Source of the DNA: Enterococcus faecalis 13-SD-W-01
GTDB taxonomy: Bacteria; Bacillota; Bacilli; Lactobacillales; Enterococcaceae
NCBI GenBank assembly: GCA_000415185.1
Contig: KE351686.1
Coordinates: forward strand, 170,251 to 207,824
Reading direction: 5' to 3'
Length of the DNA stretch: 37,574 nt
Shown piece by piece: positions 20,640-30,242 of this stretch; positions within the stretch are counted from its first letter, which is position 1; the number at the start of each line of letters is the position of its first letter. The notes beneath the pieces were generated by a model. The model saw only the letters and a program-made list of their open reading frames with translations. It had not been told where the DNA came from and ran no database searches. The translations under genes were made by a program, and so were the position numbers.

Positions 20640-20981
20640 TCAACTGCATTCTTCATCTCTGACCCATTTCTCGCCCCAAATCTGCAGCTGACGCATCGAA
20701 CTTTGCAAATCGGCTCCTTTTTCTGTCAATAGATATTCTGAACGATTGGATTCGCCGCAAGCAATATTTCTTGTGACGATTTTTTCTTTTTCCAATTCTT
20801 TCAAACGTTCTGCCAATACGCGATCACTGACCATCGGGATTTTCGCAGCTAGATCAACAAAGCGCTGCGGACCATTTTCCAACAATACGTCGATAATCAA
20901 TCCGTTCCACTTTTTGCCTAAAATCGAGAACGTCTTTTCAAATTTAGGACAAAGAGCAAACTCCGTCGTTACTTGCTCCAT
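20640..20981 (-). CDS. YodB-like HxlR/DUF24 redox-sensing regulator
   Basis: A 113-aa winged-helix DNA-binding protein of the HxlR (DUF24) family. The N-terminus CPKFEKTFSILGKKWNGLII closely resembles Bacillus subtilis YodB, whose Cys6 is the thiol sensor for quinones and diamide. Here that Cys is Cys11. A second Cys sits at the C-terminus (Cys112), where YodB has its disulfide partner; Cys75 is a third. The recognition region is near 48-66 (PMVSDRVLAERLKELE). SD GAGGTGA lies 4 bases before the ATG. Its own promoter carries a CTTAC-N5-GTAAG operator, and the nitroreductase gene at 30.3 kb has the same one. It lies directly after addA and before the pheST promoter. Target genes and signal are inferred. 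Confidence 0.88.
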   Translation of the reverse strand: MEQVTTEFALCPKFEKTFSILGKKWNGLIIDVLLENGPQRFVDLAAKIPMVSDRVLAERLKELEKEKIVTRNIACGESNRSEYLLTEKGADLQSSMRQLQIWGEKWVRDEECS

Positions 20982-21002
20982 TCTCTCACCTCTTTTTTTC
21001 TA

Positions 21003-21031
21003 AGTATACCACATTGCTTACAAAATGTAAG
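21003..21031 (-). promoter_or_regulatory. Promoter and operator of the YodB-like gene
   Basis: Minus-strand CTTACA (21026-21031), 17-base spacer, TATACT (21003-21008). The perfect inverted repeat CTTAC-AAAAT-GTAAG (21017-21031) covers the -35 and half the spacer, so the protein probably represses itself. Confidence 0.7.
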
Positions 21032-21046
21032 AGACTTTGTTTTTGT

Positions 21047-24000
21047 TTATAATTTCTTAGTAATATCGATGATTTTTCTTGCACTCAATAAGACAAGATA
21101 GCCTTTTGCCACTGGTTTATCTAAGGAATCTGCCAATGCTTGGCGGTAAAGACGTAATTGGCCAAGATATTTATCAACTGTCTGCTCTACTTCTTCTGGA
21201 TTTTCTGGATGCAAAATGAAATCTGTCTTGAAATCATAGAACCAGACTTCGTTTTCTAATTCAAGATATCCGTCAATGATTCCATGGATCAAAAGATCAT
21301 CTTCTTCTGCTGGATAATCAGCAAAAACAGAAGCAGCTGACACCAATGTTGAAAAAGGCTGTTCTCTTTTTACGGAAAGTTTATGGTCGATCAATTGCTG
21401 TCCGAGCTCTGTTCCAAAGAACCATATTATAGAAGCAATCGGGATTTTTTTCGCTGCGGAGGCATCGATCAATCGTTTTTTCACTAGTTCAGCAATCAGT
21501 TCTTTGATCGACTCTTCTGTTGGTGTTTCCAAAGGCAGCAGCTGTAAGAGATAATGCGTTGCTGTCCCCACTGCTGCGGCAGATACTTGTTTGCCTTTAT
21601 TCAAAAATCTTGGTTCAGCTAATTTGTCCTGTGTATAACGGAATCTTTGGTTGATTGCTTTTTTCTGGCTGCTTTCCCAAACAAGTTTTGTCGTCTGCGT
21701 TTCATCCGGATCTTCAAATAACCGTTTGATTTCCGATACAGATTGATAGCTGGTCGTTTGCGACGCCGCTTGGTAAGGATACACATATTCTAGTCTGCTT
21801 TTCAATTCTTTCGATAAAGAAGTGCCGTCTGAAACTTCTTCTTCCATGATTTCTTGCGTTGCCAAAGCTTGCCGTTTTTCTAATAACTCTTGCTGGTTCA
21901 TCCAAGTGATGGAAAAATCCCCCTTGGTTCTTTCTAAAGCGGCAGATTCATGTTCGGTCAAATATTCTTTCATTTTTTGATGTCGGAATAGACTGTAGCC
22001 GATCCAATTCATCAAACTGCTGCGGCTTTTCAAACGAAGCATTGGGTCTAAAACAAGATTTGTTTGGTTTCCTGCCTCTGACCACGTATCCAGTGTTTGT
22101 TCGCGGCTTTTATACGAACCAATGATAAATAATTTTTGTTCTGCTCGAGTCAGTCCGACATAAAGCTTCCGCATCTCTTCAGATAACAGCTTGTTTTGTT
22201 TTGCTGTTTTGATTGCTTGGTAGGGTAATGTATCATATAACACTCGTGTTTCGGGGTCAAGATAGCGGATACCGGCTCCTAATCGTTCTTCGAAAATATA
22301 CCGGCTTCTCAAATCTTGCAAATTGAATTCTTTTGTCATATCCAGTAAAAAGACCACTGGGAATTCCAATCCCTTACTGGCGTGAATCGTCATGACGCGA
22401 ACAGCATTATCTGCTGTTGCAATCACTGGTTCCGCCAAGTCTTTGTCTTTTTCCTGCATTTTTTCAATGAAGCGGACGAATTGATACAGCCCTCTGAATG
22501 AACTTTTTTCATAAGATTTTGCCCGGTCTGCTAAAGCATATAGGTTTGCTTGTCTTTGCTGTCCTGCGGGTAAACCGGCCACATATTTCAGATAACCTGT
22601 CGTTTCGTAGATGTCCCATAACAATTCTGTGATCGATTTTCTGCGAGCCATTTCCCGCCAGCGGTCCAGCAGCTGATGGAAAGATTCCATACGTTCGCTC
22701 AGTGCATCTTTTTTAGCTGCTTTATAGGTCAAGAACGCTTCATAGAATGTATGGCTTTTATCTGCTAATCGTATTTTCGCCATCTCTACTTCTTTGAACC
22801 CGGCAATCGGTGATCGCAACACAGCGGCTAATGGAATATCTTGATACGGATTGTCGATCAATTGAAGCAAAGAAATCATTGTCCGGATCTCAGTTGCTTG
22901 AAAATAATTTTGGGCATCGTTCATTTCTAATGGGATGTCCATCGTCTTGAAGACATCCAAGATCGACAAGTTGTTTTTCTTGGTAGGTGTCAATAAAACG
23001 ATATCGCGAAATTCAACAGGTCGTTCTTGTTTTTCTTTCTTATCATAAATCAAGAATTTTCCATCTACTAATTGTCTGATTTTCAACCCAGTCATAAAGA
23101 GTTCGCCTTCTGTTTTATCTTCTACCCAAAGATCTTCCGGCAATTCCGCTTCTGGCGTTTCCTGCTCTTTTTCGTAGATTAAAATTTCTGGTGCAAAGCC
23201 TTCCTTTTCTGGAAATTCTGGGAATCCAGTAATCAGTTTCGCAGCTTCATCATACTCGATTTGCCCGACAGCCGGGTCCATGATTTGTTCAAAAATCAGA
23301 TTCGTAAAGGAAAGAACTTCTTCTCTGGAACGGAAATTTTCGGCTAAAACAATTCGGCGTCCGCCGTCTTTTTCCGCAAAATCCTGATATTTTTTGATGA
23401 ACAAACTGGGATCTGCCAAACGGAAAGAATAAATCGATTGTTTCACATCTCCAACCATGAACATGTTTCCTTTTTTAGGATCAGGTTCTCTTACCCAATA
23501 AAGAATAGCTTCTTGCAGCTGATTGATATCTTGGTATTCATCTACCATTACTTCTTTGAATTTTTTCCGATAGTAAAGAGAAGCTTCAGTCGGCTGCCAT
23601 TCTTCCTCTGATTGATCCGTCAGTATTTTTAATGTCAGATGCTCCAAGTCATTGAAATCCAAAACTCCTTTTTCCCGTTTCTTTTCAGTAAAACCTTCCA
23701 TGAATCCTTTAGTCACTTGGATCATTTCAGTAACTAATGGAGCAGCTTTTGCCATGATCTCTTTCATTTTATCTGGCGAAAGCGGAAAATACGTCTTACT
23801 CAAGCCTTGGATGATTTTCTTTGCCTGATCGCGTAATGCTTTGATGGCGTTCGAAAGTTCTTTCAACTCTGCTTTGCGACTGCTCTTAAATGTAGAGAAA
23901 CGAAGCTGCCCTAACGCATCATAAGCTTCCTCCAGCTGATCTTGGACAAAAAAGCCGTACACATTATTGACGATTGCTGATTCTTCAGAAACTTGATCAT

Positions 24001-24766
24001 ATATTTTCACTAACCCTTCGTCTTGCTGGGCATAGCGGATCATTTCTTCATAAAGTGCGACACACTGTTGTAAATCTGCTAAAAGCAATGGTCGGATCTG
24101 TTCTTGATAAAGTGGTGAGCTGCCAAGATCTCCTGTTAATTGATAGGACTGGTCCAAACGTTCCAGCCACGCTTCTGGTGAAGGATTTGCTCGTGCAAAT
24201 TCATAGAGTGCAAAAATCAAGTTTGTCAGCCCTTCATCGGAACGGTCATTTGAAAAATTGCTGGTCAGCTGGAAAAATAGTGGATCATTTTTTTCATAAA
24301 GTGTTTCCCGCAGCTCTTCCCAAACGTCTTCTTTCATCAAAATCGTTTCTGTTTCATCTGTCAGCATGCGAAAAACCGGATCAATATCGATCAGGTAATA
24401 AAAACGGCGGATCACCGTTAAACAAAACGCATGGAGTGTAGAGATATTCGCTGTCGGCAACAATAAAAGCTGCTTAGTGAAATGCTGCAGTTTGTCTGGA
24501 TCGCTTTCACTGTTCACCGCTTCTTGCAGAGCTTCCTGAATACGCTCCTTCATTTCTCGTGCCGCAGCTTCTGTAAAAGTTACGATCAGCAATTCGTCAA
24601 TATTTTCACCCATTTTCAATTTTTCGATCACTCTGCGAACCAAAACAGTTGTTTTCCCGGAACCAGCAGAAGCTGAGACAAGCAGATTATCCCCTTGATC
24701 GAAAATCGCTTGCCATTGATCATCTGTAAAACGCTCATTTTGAGGTTTTAAAGGAATGTTGCTCAT
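21047..24766 (-). CDS. addA: AddA/RexA helicase-nuclease subunit
   Basis: A 1239-aa subunit of the AddAB (RexAB) double-strand-break resection enzyme, which loads RecA and degrades linear DNA. UvrD-type helicase motifs: Walker A SASAGSGKTT (31-40), Ia TFTEAAAREMKER, II VDEYQDINQLQ, III MFMVGDVKQSIYSFR, V/VI MTIHASKGLEFP and YVGLTRAEQKL. The C-terminal RecB-like nuclease domain shows LIHGIIDGYLE and the catalytic VWFYDFKTDF. Its ATG overlaps the addB stop by 4 bases (ATGA), so the two are co-translated. No terminator is obvious between it and the YodB-like gene. Confidence 0.96.
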   Translation of the reverse strand: MSNIPLKPQNERFTDDQWQAIFDQGDNLLVSASAGSGKTTVLVRRVIEKLKMGENIDELLIVTFTEAAAREMKERIQEALQEAVNSESDPDKLQHFTKQLLLLPTANISTLHAFCLTVIRRFYYLIDIDPVFRMLTDETETILMKEDVWEELRETLYEKNDPLFFQLTSNFSNDRSDEGLTNLIFALYEFARANPSPEAWLERLDQSYQLTGDLGSSPLYQEQIRPLLLADLQQCVALYEEMIRYAQQDEGLVKIYDQVSEESAIVNNVYGFFVQDQLEEAYDALGQLRFSTFKSSRKAELKELSNAIKALRDQAKKIIQGLSKTYFPLSPDKMKEIMAKAAPLVTEMIQVTKGFMEGFTEKKREKGVLDFNDLEHLTLKILTDQSEEEWQPTEASLYYRKKFKEVMVDEYQDINQLQEAILYWVREPDPKKGNMFMVGDVKQSIYSFRLADPSLFIKKYQDFAEKDGGRRIVLAENFRSREEVLSFTNLIFEQIMDPAVGQIEYDEAAKLITGFPEFPEKEGFAPEILIYEKEQETPEAELPEDLWVEDKTEGELFMTGLKIRQLVDGKFLIYDKKEKQERPVEFRDIVLLTPTKKNNLSILDVFKTMDIPLEMNDAQNYFQATEIRTMISLLQLIDNPYQDIPLAAVLRSPIAGFKEVEMAKIRLADKSHTFYEAFLTYKAAKKDALSERMESFHQLLDRWREMARRKSITELLWDIYETTGYLKYVAGLPAGQQRQANLYALADRAKSYEKSSFRGLYQFVRFIEKMQEKDKDLAEPVIATADNAVRVMTIHASKGLEFPVVFLLDMTKEFNLQDLRSRYIFEERLGAGIRYLDPETRVLYDTLPYQAIKTAKQNKLLSEEMRKLYVGLTRAEQKLFIIGSYKSREQTLDTWSEAGNQTNLVLDPMLRLKSRSSLMNWIGYSLFRHQKMKEYLTEHESAALERTKGDFSITWMNQQELLEKRQALATQEIMEEEVSDGTSLSKELKSRLEYVYPYQAASQTTSYQSVSEIKRLFEDPDETQTTKLVWESSQKKAINQRFRYTQDKLAEPRFLNKGKQVSAAAVGTATHYLLQLLPLETPTEESIKELIAELVKKRLIDASAAKKIPIASIIWFFGTELGQQLIDHKLSVKREQPFSTLVSAASVFADYPAEEDDLLIHGIIDGYLELENEVWFYDFKTDFILHPENPEEVEQTVDKYLGQLRLYRQALADSLDKPVAKGYLVLLSARKIIDITKKL

Positions 24767-27700
24767 TCCTCGTCACTTCCTTCCATCATTCTTCGCAAAG
24801 CTTCTTCTTTATTCAGCTTTTCCAGCCGTTGATAATTATTTTCTTTCAACATCACATCGAATGTGCAGACACTTCTAAATGGGCATGTTTGACACGCGAT
24901 TCGCTGTTTGTCTTTATAAGACGGGTTCAGTTTGATTTCTCCAGAAGTGATTGCATCACCGGCTAAGCGCATTTTTTTGCGGTTGTGCGCCATAAACATC
25001 TGCAATTCTTCTTCTGTAAAGAATTTTTCTTTGCTGTAGCTGCCTTTTTGGTATTGTTCTTTTGCATTTTTCTTCACTGGATAAATCAGCGAATTTTCTT
25101 TTGCTTCAAGTGAATGGTCAAGTACTTCCAATAAGCCTGGATCATCAACGAACAAGCCGTCATAACTGAATTTTTTCAATGTTTCTTTATCGACATTCTC
25201 TGCTTCGCTCAGTACAGGATTATGGACATGAAGATAATAAGATCCCGCAGGCTTGACCGCTGCTTGCCCTGTCAGATGTACAGCATCCATCAAAGCAACA
25301 TCTAAATATGTCAGCAGCTGCATCGCCATACCATAATAAGCTTCTGTGACATCAAAAGAACGGCCGCTTGACTTGTAGTCGACGACGCTTAACCATGTTT
25401 CGTCTTGGTCATTGGCGACATCTACCCGATCGATTTTCCCTCGCACATGGAGTTTCCCGCCATTTGACAATGGCAATTCTAAACCAGTGATCCCTTTTGC
25501 ACCTGCGATTTGTCCAAATAAGATTTCCGTTTGCAACGGATGCAGACCAGTATTCTTGCTTTGTCTTTGCAATGCCCAAACGACTTTTTGGATCGTTTGA
25601 CCTAATTGGTACCGGATATAGTTCATGCGGGCAGAACTGGCTAGGATCTCAAATTTCAATTCGCCAAAGACATCTTCTAGTACTTTTTCGGTGAAAGCTT
25701 CCCGCTGTTTATCCGTCATTTCCACTAATGAGACTTGATTTGAGAAAAGAAGCTTGAAAAATCGATCCAACGATTCATGATAAAAGTCCCCCGTTGCTGC
25801 TGGTGTCAGCCCATAAATCGAGCGTTCTTTTAATTTCAAACCAAATTGAACAAAATATTTGTATTCACAGTGATAAAAACTTTCCATACGTGAAATCGAT
25901 GTATAGATATCTTTTCCATATAATTCTTCGGCAAGCTCCGTTGGCAAAGCAACCGGAACATTCAAATGTGTCTGGCTCTCAAAAATCCTCAAAGCAAATT
26001 CTCGCCATTGGGAATGCAGTACCAGATCTTTCAGCTGCTGCCAAACGGTTGGGATAGCTTGTTTTTCGTCTGCCGCTATGCGGTAAACACGATTCAATTC
26101 GTCGATCAGATTCTTATATGTCCCTACATGTGCTTCTGGTTTGCTTTGTAATGTCAGATGTTCTTTTTTCTCTACCGGAACAGATAAATACTCACTGATC
26201 CTGCGCAAATATGGCGATATTTTTAATGAACGATCTGTGTCGTAACTTTGCGCATAACTCAAATACAAATGCTGAGAAGCGGAATTGAAGACAAGATAGG
26301 CACGGAAAGGTTCCATACTCATCGTCTCTTTCGCAGGATCAAACAGATATTTCCCTTCTTCCAATGTATCATTCAACAGTTGTCTTTCTTCACTGGAAAG
26401 CAGGCCTTTCGTCTCAGTCCTGTCAGGAAAAACTTGGTCATTTAAACCAACAGCAATCGTTACTTTTGCTTGATTTGCGCGGACAAGTTCCAAACGGTTG
26501 ATACGCACCTGGTCAATTGCTGTAGGGATTTTCCCGTAGCTGAGATTTTCAAGACCACTGGTAATGATTTCCTGGAAAGATGCCCAGTCAAACGGTTCTT
26601 CTTCATAGATGACAGCATATTCATCCAACAGGTCGATCAATGCGCCCCATGTTTGCTCGTGGTTTCTAGCCGCCGCAAGATCACCGCGTTCGATTTCTTG
26701 GTTGCGCCAAAAAATCAGCTGTTCTTGTACACCGCTTGTCACTAAAAATTGATAAAACACACTCGCTGCTTCTTGACCTGTTTTGCTCTTTTTGATTTTT
26801 TCAAAAAAGGCAGGAACCGTCTCTTGAAATTGACGGCGAATCAAATTCGCTTGCTGTTCAAGCATGCGAACATCTTCTAGTTTGTCTTCTTCAAAATCAT
26901 ACGCAATAAAACGCCATGCTTTGTCTTGCAGCCACTGATTTCCTTGGTAGTTATAAGCAAGCGCGGCATTTTCTGCTAAATCCAGCCGCTGACGGAAAAG
27001 ATCCCGCTGTTCCAGCCATTCTTCCAAAGACTGCGGATTTTCTGCTGGCGGCAAAAACAGTTCTGTTTTGAAAAAACGCATGATATCTCGCAAACGATAA
27101 TACGAACGGTCCATCGCAAACAAACTATTGATGAATTCTACCAGCGGATGGCTTTCCATCAACTGATCCTCATCGACGTAATAAGGAATCGCCATCTCTT
27201 CAAAAATAGGCTGGATCAAGTCGCTGTATAAGTCCATACTTTTGGTCAAGATCTGGATATCTCTATAGCGATAGCCTTCTTCACTGACTAAACGGCGAAT
27301 TTCAACTGCTGCTTGACGGATTTCTTCGGTAGGCGTTTCTGCTTCCCACAAACGAAGATCCTGTTGTTTGCCTAAAGAATGTTCCTGTCTTCTTTTTTGA
27401 CTAGATGTTTCTTCCCAGACTTCTTGAAGACTCGTTATCGCTTGTGCAAGTGGTTTATCTGGTGCGTGTTTGTCTAAATAAACAGGTATCCTTGCTTCTG
27501 CAGCTGCTTGTTTTAAGCGAAAATAAATCTGTCCCGTCGAATAAAAAAGATCCAATGGTTCCGGCGGTGCTGCCGGATAAGCCTTATCCAATAATAAGTC
27601 GACCGTCAAATGCCCTCTTTCCATCAGCACACGCAGCAGTTGATACTCTTGTGCGTTCAATTGTGAAAAACCGCTGACGATAAATTTGATATGAGAAAGA

Positions 27701-28293
27701 TCTTGCTGACTCAAGTAGTTTGCCAACAAGGTCATTTGATTTTCTGATTGGACGCCATGGATCAGCATTTCTTCTTCAAATGTATTGAAAATCAGCTGCA
27801 GATCCTGCATTTTCAGGCGCTGATCTTCTTGTTTTGGCGTCTCAATACCTTGAACAATCAGATCATCTGGTGTGATATTACCTGTTTGCAGTTCATTGTA
27901 AAGATCCTGCAGCTGCTTGATAAATCCTTTTTTATTGATTTCGCCGCGAAAAACAGTCAGTTCTTCTTGTCTCTTTGCCAATACTTGACGCAAAAGCATC
28001 GCAGAACCTGCTTCGGATAATTCACTGCCGCTTAAAAGTGTTGTTTGCTGCAAAAAATACCAAGCCAAACGATAGAAACTGAATACTTGGATCTTGGTTG
28101 TACTTAATGTCTTTTTTTGTTCCTTTGCTCGAACTGCAGCTAAAAATTCCTGCTCCTGTTCAAATTTGCTGTAGTTAGGGACAAGGAAAAATACCTCATG
28201 CTTTGGGTCTTCATCCATCCAAGCAAGTGTTTCATCAACTAAAGCTGTCTGATGGTCTTTTCTTCCGGTTCCTAAAATAAATTGTAAAGACAT
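24763..28293 (-). CDS. addB: AddB/RexB nuclease subunit
   Basis: A 1176-aa partner of AddA. The N-terminus (LQFILGTGRKDHQTALVDE) is the helicase-like fold, but the Walker A lysine-threonine pair is missing, as is usual in the RexB form of lactic acid bacteria, so AddA should be the only motor. The C-terminal nuclease has VDYKSSGR. An iron-sulfur staple is formed by a Cys in SFYHCEYKYF and three in CQTCPFRSVC near the C-terminus. Start: ATG at 28293 with SD AGGAGGAGG; the longer frame is unsupported. First gene of addBA, with an extended -10 TGTTATAAT at 28350-28357. Confidence 0.95.
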   Translation of the reverse strand: MSLQFILGTGRKDHQTALVDETLAWMDEDPKHEVFFLVPNYSKFEQEQEFLAAVRAKEQKKTLSTTKIQVFSFYRLAWYFLQQTTLLSGSELSEAGSAMLLRQVLAKRQEELTVFRGEINKKGFIKQLQDLYNELQTGNITPDDLIVQGIETPKQEDQRLKMQDLQLIFNTFEEEMLIHGVQSENQMTLLANYLSQQDLSHIKFIVSGFSQLNAQEYQLLRVLMERGHLTVDLLLDKAYPAAPPEPLDLFYSTGQIYFRLKQAAAEARIPVYLDKHAPDKPLAQAITSLQEVWEETSSQKRRQEHSLGKQQDLRLWEAETPTEEIRQAAVEIRRLVSEEGYRYRDIQILTKSMDLYSDLIQPIFEEMAIPYYVDEDQLMESHPLVEFINSLFAMDRSYYRLRDIMRFFKTELFLPPAENPQSLEEWLEQRDLFRQRLDLAENAALAYNYQGNQWLQDKAWRFIAYDFEEDKLEDVRMLEQQANLIRRQFQETVPAFFEKIKKSKTGQEAASVFYQFLVTSGVQEQLIFWRNQEIERGDLAAARNHEQTWGALIDLLDEYAVIYEEEPFDWASFQEIITSGLENLSYGKIPTAIDQVRINRLELVRANQAKVTIAVGLNDQVFPDRTETKGLLSSEERQLLNDTLEEGKYLFDPAKETMSMEPFRAYLVFNSASQHLYLSYAQSYDTDRSLKISPYLRRISEYLSVPVEKKEHLTLQSKPEAHVGTYKNLIDELNRVYRIAADEKQAIPTVWQQLKDLVLHSQWREFALRIFESQTHLNVPVALPTELAEELYGKDIYTSISRMESFYHCEYKYFVQFGLKLKERSIYGLTPAATGDFYHESLDRFFKLLFSNQVSLVEMTDKQREAFTEKVLEDVFGELKFEILASSARMNYIRYQLGQTIQKVVWALQRQSKNTGLHPLQTEILFGQIAGAKGITGLELPLSNGGKLHVRGKIDRVDVANDQDETWLSVVDYKSSGRSFDVTEAYYGMAMQLLTYLDVALMDAVHLTGQAAVKPAGSYYLHVHNPVLSEAENVDKETLKKFSYDGLFVDDPGLLEVLDHSLEAKENSLIYPVKKNAKEQYQKGSYSKEKFFTEEELQMFMAHNRKKMRLAGDAITSGEIKLNPSYKDKQRIACQTCPFRSVCTFDVMLKENNYQRLEKLNKEEALRRMMEGSDEE

Positions 28294-28349
28294 TTTTCCT
28301 CCTCCTTTATTTGTTGTGTTCAACAGTTATATCAATTTTCTTTCTTCCT

Positions 28350-28357
28350 ATTATAAC
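28350..28357 (-). promoter_or_regulatory. Extended -10 of the addBA promoter
   Basis: Minus-strand TGT-TATAAT (TATAAT at 28350-28355) about 57 bases before the addB ATG; no clear -35. Confidence 0.45.
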
Positions 28358-28410
28358 AAAACAACTGGAACATTTGTTCTTTATCTGTAAATTTACGGGT
28401 AAAACGACAA

Positions 28411-28444
28411 AAAAAGAAACTGGACCAATAGCCAGTTTCTTTTT
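28411..28444 (-). terminator. Terminator of the POT transporter gene
   Basis: AAAAAGAAACTGG / CCAGTTTCTTTTT, 13-bp stem with an 8-base loop and a seven-base T-run on the minus strand. Confidence 0.88.
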
Positions 28445-28490
28445 ATTTTTTCTTAACGTTCAATCACTATTTTTTATCGAAAGCTTATGC

Positions 28491-29957
28491 TTAATTTACG
28501 TTACCCATCATTTTTTTGATTGGTTCTTTCAGCAAGAATAGTAAGACACCGCCGATGATAGCTACGATACCTACGATTCCGAAATAAGCAGATTCTGTTG
28601 CTGGTGTGTAAAAACGAGCGATTTGCGCGTTGATAACTTGTGATGATGCATCAGCTAAGAACCAGATTGCTACTGTTTGTGATTCAAAAGCGCGCGGCGC
28701 AAGTCTTGTCGTTACAGATAGACCAACTGGAGACAAGCACAACTCTGCGATAACAACGATGAAGAAGCTTCCTAATAACCATAATGGGCTTACTTTTCCA
28801 TCTGTTCCAAACAAGACACCTGGCATCATCAATAACAAGAATGACAAGCCTGCGAACAATAAACCTAGAGAGAATTTAACAACAGTTGATGGTTGTCTTT
28901 TACCAAGTTTTGTCCACATTGTAACGAAAATCGGTGTCAACATGAAAATAAAGATTGGATTCAATGATTGGTACCAGCTTGGTTGGATCGTCATACCGAA
29001 CAATGTATTGTTTGTTCTTTCATCTGCAAACAATGCAAGAATGGATGAACCTTGTTCTTGTAAAGACCAGAAAACACTTGCAGCCAAGAACAATGGGATA
29101 TAAGCAATTACTTTTGGTTTTTCTTCTGGTGCAACATCTTTTGAAGTCAGCATTTTGATAAAGTAGAAAATCGGTAATACGATACCCAATACTGTTGTAA
29201 CATTCAAGAAGAATTCAAAAGTCAAGTAACCAGTAACTTGAGCGATACCGAAAATCGCCGCGATGATCACGACAGCAATCACTAAATTGCGGATCAATTT
29301 TTTACGTTCTTCAGATTCTAATGGATTTGGCGGTGTCATACCGATACCGTCTAACGTTTTACGGCCTTGGATCACATATTGCAGCAAACCGAAGAACATA
29401 CCAAAGGCAGCAAGAGAGAAACCTAAATGATAGTTGTATTCTTGACCTAATGTACCAACGATCAGCGGTGCCAACAACGCACCCAAGTTCACGCCCATAT
29501 AAAAGATCGAGAAGCCAGCATCACGGCGCAAGTCATCTTTAGAATATAAATGACCAACCATACCAGATACATTTGGTTTCAAGAACGCTGTACCTGTGAT
29601 GATCAATGCCATCGAAGTAAATAGAGCACCTACTCCAAACGGCGTTGCTAAAACGATGTGTCCAAACATGATGAAGACTCCACCAATAAACACTGTACGT
29701 TTTGCACCCAATACTCGGTCAGAGACCCATCCCCCAATGATACTTGTCATATATACTAAAGCACCATATAGCGACATAATCGACAATGCGGTTTGTTTTG
29801 GAAGTCCCAATCCGCCAGATGTTACTGCATCGTACATGTAATAAAGAAGCAGCGCACGCATACCATAATAGCTGAATCGTTCCCACATTTCTGTAAAGAA
29901 CAACGTGGATAGCCCTCGCGGCTGTCCGAAAAATCCTTTGTCTTGTTGTTTTTCCAT
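28491..29957 (-). CDS. dtpT: Proton-coupled di-/tripeptide transporter (POT family)
   Basis: A 488-aa major-facilitator protein of the PTR2/POT family that imports di- and tripeptides with protons. Family marks: the proton-coupling ExxERFSYYG (EMWERFSYYGMRALL), the PTR2 signature GGWVSDRVLGAKRT, and FYMGVNLGALLAP. About 14 hydrophobic segments are present, the normal number. SD AAGG lies close to the ATG, so translation initiation may be modest. A CodY-type box (29979-29993) lies 22 bases upstream, fitting repression when branched-chain amino acids and GTP are high. Single-gene unit with its own terminator. Confidence 0.93.
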   Translation of the reverse strand: MEKQQDKGFFGQPRGLSTLFFTEMWERFSYYGMRALLLYYMYDAVTSGGLGLPKQTALSIMSLYGALVYMTSIIGGWVSDRVLGAKRTVFIGGVFIMFGHIVLATPFGVGALFTSMALIITGTAFLKPNVSGMVGHLYSKDDLRRDAGFSIFYMGVNLGALLAPLIVGTLGQEYNYHLGFSLAAFGMFFGLLQYVIQGRKTLDGIGMTPPNPLESEERKKLIRNLVIAVVIIAAIFGIAQVTGYLTFEFFLNVTTVLGIVLPIFYFIKMLTSKDVAPEEKPKVIAYIPLFLAASVFWSLQEQGSSILALFADERTNNTLFGMTIQPSWYQSLNPIFIFMLTPIFVTMWTKLGKRQPSTVVKFSLGLLFAGLSFLLLMMPGVLFGTDGKVSPLWLLGSFFIVVIAELCLSPVGLSVTTRLAPRAFESQTVAIWFLADASSQVINAQIARFYTPATESAYFGIVGIVAIIGGVLLFLLKEPIKKMMGNVN

Positions 29958-29978
29958 AATCCTTACCCCAATTCTTTA

Positions 29979-29993
29979 AATTTTCAGAAAATA
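29979..29993 (-). promoter_or_regulatory. CodY box at the dtpT promoter
   Basis: AATTTTCAGAAAATA matches the CodY consensus AATTTTCWGAAAATT at 14 of 15 positions. On the minus strand it overlaps a -10-like TATTAT, so CodY binding would block transcription. The rest of the 346-base gap up to 30303 is very AT-rich, with the nitroreductase promoter at its far end and nothing else I can name. Confidence 0.75.
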
Positions 29994-30213
29994 ATACACA
30001 TATTTACCGAAAAATTTAACTAAAAAACTTATTTAAGAAATATAAACTTATTTTCTATAAAAATCCCAAAAAAATAATGACAAAACGATAAGAATAAATA
30101 TACATATATCTAATCAATATACTCTGATTTTTGACAAAAACCCAGCAAACAGCTCTAAATAACCAGAAAAAAACACCTTTTTAGATTTTTTTACAAATTG
30201 CGAAGCAAAATAG

Positions 30214-30242
30214 TTTACTTACTTTTTGTAAGGTGCTATACT
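30214..30242 (+). promoter_or_regulatory. Nitroreductase promoter with YodB-type operator
   Basis: TTTACT (30214-30219), 17-base spacer, TATACT (30237-30242). The perfect inverted repeat CTTAC-TTTTT-GTAAG (30218-30232) fills the spacer. It has the same half-sites and spacing as the site in front of the YodB-like gene at 21.0 kb. Confidence 0.7.

Follow-up and report, generated by a model that had tools for sequence, protein, structure and literature searches.

We analyzed a 37,574-nucleotide stretch of the genome of Enterococcus faecalis 13-SD-W-01 (contig KE351686.1, positions 170,251 to 207,824; hereafter the window), which encodes a YodB-like regulator of the HxlR/DUF24 family, a nitroreductase and, at the promoters of both genes, the palindrome CTTAC-N5-GTAAG. 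The first-pass annotation of this DNA had placed the two palindromes at 21017–21031 and 30218–30232, with identical half-sites and a 5-base spacing. Both are found there, as CTTACAAAATGTAAG and CTTACTTTTTGTAAG, respectively, and both match the pattern exactly. A pattern scan showed that they are the only exact copies in the window and detected no copy with one mismatch anywhere in it; at two mismatches or fewer, there were 10 matches in total, against a chance mean of 10.1. In line with the annotation, which had put one palindrome over a −35 element and the other inside a promoter, each overlaps the −35/spacer region of a promoter that we predicted by eye: CTTACA-17-TATACT, on the minus strand, for the regulator gene and TTTACT-17-TATACT for the nitroreductase gene. 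It was also right in treating the two loci as separate rather than as one operon, with addA, addB and dtpT lying between them (Table 1).

A regulator gene and a nitroreductase gene under the same palindrome

The assignment of the regulator to the YodB type is supported by its HxlR domain and by its nearest solved relative, B. subtilis YodB (9.7e-27), which scored ahead of QsrR (1.7e-14) and of the next HxlR protein (3.9e-11). Cys11 and Cys112, the residues singled out previously, are both present, together with a third cysteine, Cys75, that had gone unmentioned. Cys11 aligns with YodB Cys6. YodB Cys101 aligns with Val107 and not with Cys112; in YodB, the C-terminal partner for the intersubunit disulfide is Cys101 or Cys108 (PMC6798810, excerpt). 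All three cysteines were invariant in 14 of 14 relatives retrieved by whole-protein search, which gave an unbiased set. We also examined a named set consisting of the best 80 of 379 regulator loci, 59 from Enterococcus and 21 from Vagococcus, Lactiplantibacillus and others. Cys11 was a cysteine in 80/80 of these loci, one of the two search patterns itself containing that residue; Cys112 was conserved in 56/59 Enterococcus loci and 12/21 others, and Cys75 in 44/59 and 10/21. Allowing one mismatch, we found the palindrome in the 150 base pairs (bp) upstream of the regulator gene in 57 of the 59 Enterococcus loci (33 exact), where shuffled sequences would give 0.3. We considered another Cys-bearing DUF24 paralogue as the binder and found none in the source genome, which encodes two HxlR proteins in all, the second lacking an N-terminal Cys as judged by eye.

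In 37 of the same 59 loci, the stretch retrieved includes the nitroreductase gene, 7.4–9.7 kilobases (kb) from the regulator gene, and its own site (one mismatch or fewer) is present in all 37. The protein is nearest to CinD of Lactococcus lactis (2wqf, 2.5e-75) and other Frm2-like enzymes, with SMU.260 also among the best matches. A nitroreductase gene does sit under a YodB-type site, but with CinD and Frm2 as the nearest matches the comparison with YodC drawn earlier is only an analogy. Orthology with YodC, a protein outside our comparison, was dropped as unsupported by those matches. The second PF00881 protein of the source genome is of another type (3ge6 and 3gbh matches), and its 3.5-kb locus contains no palindrome at one mismatch or fewer. 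In three genomes (L056, L112 and L128), a second, imperfect motif copy, ATTACAAAAAGTAAG, was seen by eye downstream of the nitroreductase −10.

Table 1 Features of the window and the two tuf genes of the source genome
Feature	Position	Strand	Evidence
YodB-like HxlR/DUF24 regulator, 113 aa (amino acids), Cys11/Cys75/Cys112	20640..20981	-	Pfam HxlR 1.2e-24; YodB 5hs7 9.7e-27; QsrR 4hqm 1.7e-14
Predicted regulator −10, TATACT	21003..21008	-	By eye
Putative operator CTTACAAAATGTAAG, covering regulator −35 (21026-21031) and part of the spacer	21017..21031		Pattern scan; relatives' loci
addA, between the sites, outside the regulon	21047..24766	-	TIGR02785, 1454 bits
addB, between the sites, start codon uncertain	24763..28323	-	TIGR02773 1.3e-241, 804.7 bits (cut-off 903.7, not reached)
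dtpT-type peptide transporter, divergent from nitroreductase	28491..29957	-	TIGR00924 7.3e-137; Pfam PTR2
Predicted nitroreductase −35, TTTACT	30214..30219	+	By eye
Putative operator CTTACTTTTTGTAAG, nitroreductase promoter	30218..30232		Pattern scan; 14/15 genus genomes
Predicted nitroreductase −10, TATACT	30237..30242	+	By eye
CinD/Frm2-like nitroreductase, 198 aa	30304..30900	+	Pfam Nitroreductase 6.6e-21; CinD 2wqf 2.5e-75
Cysteine-free tuf, palindrome after its P1	L266, G000:C93:83080-84264
Cys82 tuf, no palindrome within 500 bp	L289, G000:C53:259858-261042		Behind EF-G-like frame (by eye)

Placement of the palindrome in the genus and the family

Exact CTTAC-N5-GTAAG sites number six in the source genome (2.93 Mb), where a reversed-pattern control gives five, and 97 in the 15 genus genomes (the source and 14 relatives), where the control gives 98. 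The first-pass annotation had allowed that the motif might be common at random positions; the raw counts do equal the control, yet the placement of the sites at orthologous promoters is non-random. We examined all 97 sites, 91 of them from the 14 relatives, and sorted them by downstream gene. Eight orthologous promoters account for 86 of them: thioredoxin-like (15 of the 15 genomes), second EF-Tu gene (15), nitroreductase (14), regulator (12), VOC/dioxygenase-like (12), lactate oxidase (8), riboflavin-transporter-like (7) and CatE-like (3). Among the three genomes lacking an exact regulator site, two (E. lactis and E. ratti) have a version with one mismatch. The genome without the nitroreductase site (G008) has E. 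ratti as its match, and the stretch fetched from E. ratti holds no nitroreductase. Of the 11 sites left without a promoter, 7 lie inside open reading frames of at least 150 aa and four (L064, L070, L081 and L085) are intergenic. Five assigned sites (four regulator, one nitroreductase) also fall inside a crossing reading frame of at least 150 aa, which we took for chance or run-on frames.

The distance from the site to the −10-like hexamer is steady at most of these promoters. Counted downstream of the site, it is exactly 4 bp in 14/14 nitroreductase promoters, 5 bp in 7/8 lactate oxidase promoters, 3 bp in 3/3 CatE-like promoters and 8 bp in 9/12 regulator promoters, the other three regulator promoters meeting another hexamer first, at 0 bp. 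At the second tuf gene the −10 of a promoter, P1, precedes the site by 21–22 bp in 15/15 genomes, and at the VOC gene a −10 does so by 19–23 bp in 11/12. The site lies 31 bp before the −10 of the thioredoxin gene in 15/15 genomes and 20–33 bp before that of the riboflavin gene. Judged from these positions, most sites would suit a repressor, with trxA and the riboflavin gene less clear. We think a terminator or RNA hairpin unlikely, because the palindrome overlaps the −35 or spacer at several promoters.

Some of the targets could be identified more closely than others. The L-lactate oxidase matches 9rc7 at 2.1e-190, and the VOC gene encodes a protein of 324 aa with a Pfam Glyoxalase match of 1.5e-13. 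The CatE-like product is a 293-aa VOC protein with a tentative likeness to CatE/MhqO. The gene resembling the S component of an energy-coupling factor (ECF) transporter has nothing above cut-off in NCBIfam; we read it as a riboflavin transporter because a flavin mononucleotide (FMN) riboswitch follows the site in 3/3 loci tested. The Rfam scan, which covered eight sources, returned FMN riboswitches (RF00050) only, with three matches; in these loci (L062, L090 and L143), some 65 bp, counted by strand, separate the palindrome from the riboswitch that follows it. Lactate oxidase produces peroxide, and its site occurs in 9 further family stretches in addition to the 8 of 15 genus genomes.

In the family Enterococcaceae, the regulator was found in 96 of 105 genomes (E ≤ 1e-15). 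The exact 15-mer CTTACTTTTTGTAAG occurs in 63/96 regulator-bearing and 0/9 regulator-less genomes (Fisher p 1.5e-4, kinship ignored), with 134 hits in the 105 genomes against 3 for the reversed control. Thus, the split regulon that had been proposed, held together by a shared operator, is supported by comparison (self site in 57/59 loci, nitroreductase site in 14/15 genomes, no exact CTTACTTTTTGTAAG where the regulator is missing), but it had been drawn too narrowly, as two genes only.

Outside the genus, we read 60 of 79 CTTACTTTTTGTAAG sites, two of them 27 bp apart. They precede genes for nitroreductase (10), lactate oxidase (9), a luciferase-like monooxygenase (8), an MhqD-like esterase (8), a MarR protein (4), an FMN-reductase-like protein (4, at three promoters), a CatE-like protein (3), WrbA (2) and the second EF-Tu (1); the remaining 11 stretches were assigned no target family. 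NCBIfam matches were above cut-off for WrbA and under it for lactate oxidase, the luciferase-like protein and the MhqD-like esterase (NF047577, 1.6e-46). The FMN-reductase-like protein, a tentative name, had no NCBIfam match. At the four MarR promoters (L171, L172, L175 and L177), the palindrome stands beside TATCTCGAATTCGAAATA, which is one base off the S. aureus MhqR operator (PMC6798810, excerpt). Such a promoter, carrying both motifs, makes cross-talk between two quinone sensors possible. The same excerpt lists target genes of these types for the YodB, CatR, MhqR and QsrR quinone regulons in B. subtilis and S. aureus.

Thioredoxin and a second, cysteine-free EF-Tu

We take the thioredoxin-like gene to be trxA, with the WCGPC motif seen by eye. 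Its palindrome is present as an exact copy in 15/15 genus genomes and, with at most one mismatch and within 300 bp, in 10/20 further regulator-bearing family genomes, i.e., in 25/35 regulator-bearing against 0/9 regulator-less genomes (p 1.3e-4, kinship ignored). In the genus, the site always reads GTAAGCA, which, given the 31-bp distance to the −10, places AGCA near −44. This is presumably the position of Spx at promoters. From this layout, it is plausible that trxA has two inputs, activation by Spx and repression by the YodB-like protein.

Each of the 15 genus genomes has two tuf genes among the matches listed, a limit that applies to all tuf counts here. In 15/15 genomes, the first gene encodes an EF-Tu with a single cysteine, Cys82, and has no palindrome within 500 bp, and the second encodes an EF-Tu with no cysteine (Ala82) and has an exact palindrome 108–118 bp before its start. 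The whole set comprised 60 loci, 30 from the 15 genus genomes and 30 from 28 further family genomes. Within it, the palindrome (one mismatch or fewer, 400 bp) precedes 26/32 cysteine-free and 0/28 Cys82 genes (p 1.4e-11, kinship ignored), the shuffled expectation being 0.016 per promoter. Among the nine regulator-less genomes, seven have a Cys82 tuf only, one (G094) has a cysteine-free copy with no site, and one (G063) gave no tuf match. In a phylogenetic tree, 30/32 cysteine-free proteins form one branch with a support of 100/100; the other two (G096 and G101) fall with the proteins of the Cys82 branch, and neither has the site. In many genomes, direct repeats resembling CtsR sites (TTTGACC-N4-TTTGACG) were seen by eye to overlap P1 at the second tuf gene, and we set them aside after a scan of the source genome gave three hits, of which the two at other places lie inside reading frames.

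Oxidation of Cys82 reportedly inactivates EF-Tu (Jimbo et al. 2018, as cited in the excerpt of PMC9545066), and the excerpt of PMC8425097 lists Tuf Cys82 as a site of S-bacillithiolation in Bacillus and Staphylococcus. Since the second copy has no cysteine, the EF-Tu under the thiol-switch-type site cannot suffer this oxidation. The lack of cysteine may also stem from the donor of the gene rather than from selection under this control. Enterococci reportedly carry duplicate tuf genes, and one report on them (Ke et al. 2000) is said, by its title, to describe tuf gene transfer. The two diverged genes seen here agree with that account; they differ from the single tuf given for low-G+C Gram-positive bacteria in the excerpt of PMC6822514.

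A candidate thiol-stress regulon and its alternatives

The regulator resembles YodB, its nearest solved relative, in its domain and N-terminal Cys, and nitroreductase is among the YodB targets (PMC6798810, excerpt). The operators differ: the B. subtilis YodB site is TACT-N7-AGTA (PMC8063818, excerpt), with TAC and GTA nine bases apart, and the palindrome studied here has them five bases apart. Thioredoxin, lactate oxidase and tuf are not named as YodB targets in the excerpt of PMC6798810. Its domain, its N-terminal Cys and the types of its putative targets place the protein in the YodB/QsrR family; its putative operator sets it apart from YodB itself. QsrR of S. aureus (4hqm) is of the same family, and its operator is a 15-bp sequence with N5 spacing. 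Its targets comprise a dioxygenase, a reductase, a nitroreductase and a monooxygenase (PMC6798810, excerpt). MhqD-like and ring-cleavage-type targets are shared with the MhqR regulon, but MhqR is of a different repressor family and, according to the same excerpt, is not thiol-based. CinD, the nearest solved relative of the nitroreductase, is named as copper-induced, unlike the gene here, which stands under a YodB-type site. In the open-licence literature, we found neither an account of an enterococcal quinone or thiol regulon with this palindrome nor a description of a redox-type site or of cysteine absence for the second enterococcal tuf.

We consider it likely that a thiol-sensing repressor of the YodB/QsrR type acts through CTTAC-N5-GTAAG on its own gene, the nitroreductase gene, other defence genes and the gene for the cysteine-free EF-Tu. 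A dimer of the regulator would bind the palindrome, which overlaps or adjoins the core promoter elements, and would thereby repress its own gene and the nitroreductase gene 9 kb away; elsewhere in the genome, it would repress the VOC/dioxygenase-like, lactate oxidase, thioredoxin and second EF-Tu genes. In relatives, the repressed set would also include genes for the riboflavin-transporter-like, CatE-like and MhqD-like proteins, the luciferase-like monooxygenase and quinone reductases. Quinones or disulfide stress would modify Cys11, either as an adduct or by linking it in a disulfide to a Cys near the C-terminus, for instance Cys112. The modified dimer would then leave the DNA, and the detoxification enzymes, thioredoxin and cysteine-free EF-Tu would be made.

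Several observations weigh against this proposal. The abundance of the motif proves nothing, with no excess over the control. At trxA and the riboflavin gene, the −35 comes after the site, an arrangement in which repression is less obvious, and the nitroreductase site also lies before the divergent dtpT. The spacing of the palindrome departs from that of the YodB operator, and the self site is found in just 1/21 of the named loci outside Enterococcus. In the family, 33/96 regulator-bearing genomes lack the exact 15-mer, one genome (G066) was counted as regulator-bearing on a 34% match, two (G016 and G048) have the motif though their regulator match has stops in frame, and 6/32 cysteine-free tuf genes lack the site. 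The co-occurrence statistics, moreover, take no account of phylogeny.

Among the other explanations, the strongest, which we nevertheless judge unlikely, is that the regulator controls a detoxification core only (its own gene, the nitroreductase gene, the VOC genes and lactate oxidase) and that some other factor uses the copies at trxA and the second tuf, Spx-RNA polymerase being one candidate at trxA. Consistent with it, 15/15 trxA sites read GTAAGCA with a −10 at 31 bp, which would fit the Spx position; several regulator-less genomes still have AGCA, by eye, ahead of trxA; and the trxA sites have TAAAG, TAAAT, TAATG or TTAAT as their interior where the core sites have TTTTT. Yet the trxA palindrome is gone from all nine regulator-less genomes and kept in 25 of the 35 regulator-bearing ones, its 10 half-site bases stay constant while the interior varies, and at the second tuf 14/15 sites carry the very 15-mer of the core sites, on the opposite strand. 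A signal other than quinone or thiol stress, such as copper, is suggested by the best PDB match of the nitroreductase, titled 'copper induced nitroreductase D', from L. lactis. We regard this as quite improbable in view of a regulator nearest to YodB and QsrR with the same N-terminal Cys, of targets in relatives that are of the quinone-detoxification type, and of the MarR gene of one genus, where the palindrome adjoins a near-copy of the MhqR operator.

It is still less probable that the palindrome belongs to an unrelated, co-inherited regulator and that the YodB-like protein has a different role. The case for binding by the YodB-like protein is comparative and the published YodB site differs, but the palindrome sits in the self promoter of nearly all the Enterococcus loci, is lost along with the regulator, and has no second Cys-bearing HxlR protein in the genome to account for it. 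That the two window sites match by chance has almost nothing in its favor beyond the genome-wide raw count, which is the same as that of the reversed pattern; such counts are insufficient to reject it, and we reject it on the conserved place and steady spacing of both sites in most relatives.

The repressor proposal has a further consequence for translation, which we put forward tentatively, at slightly less than even confidence. By freeing the long-diverged, cysteine-free EF-Tu together with thioredoxin and quinone detoxification, the YodB-type repressor would bring about a redox-controlled exchange of EF-Tu, sparing elongation from Cys82 oxidation: the cysteine-free protein would sustain translation while the Cys82 protein is oxidized. 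If the proposal is correct, the palindrome would outline a quinone and thiol stress regulon for Enterococcus that is tied to a core translation factor, and the same sensor would govern lactate oxidase, which produces peroxide, as well as the riboflavin supply of relatives. It might then be explained why so many enterococci keep a diverged second tuf gene, whose product may be an isoform for times of stress that lacks the cysteine prone to oxidation.

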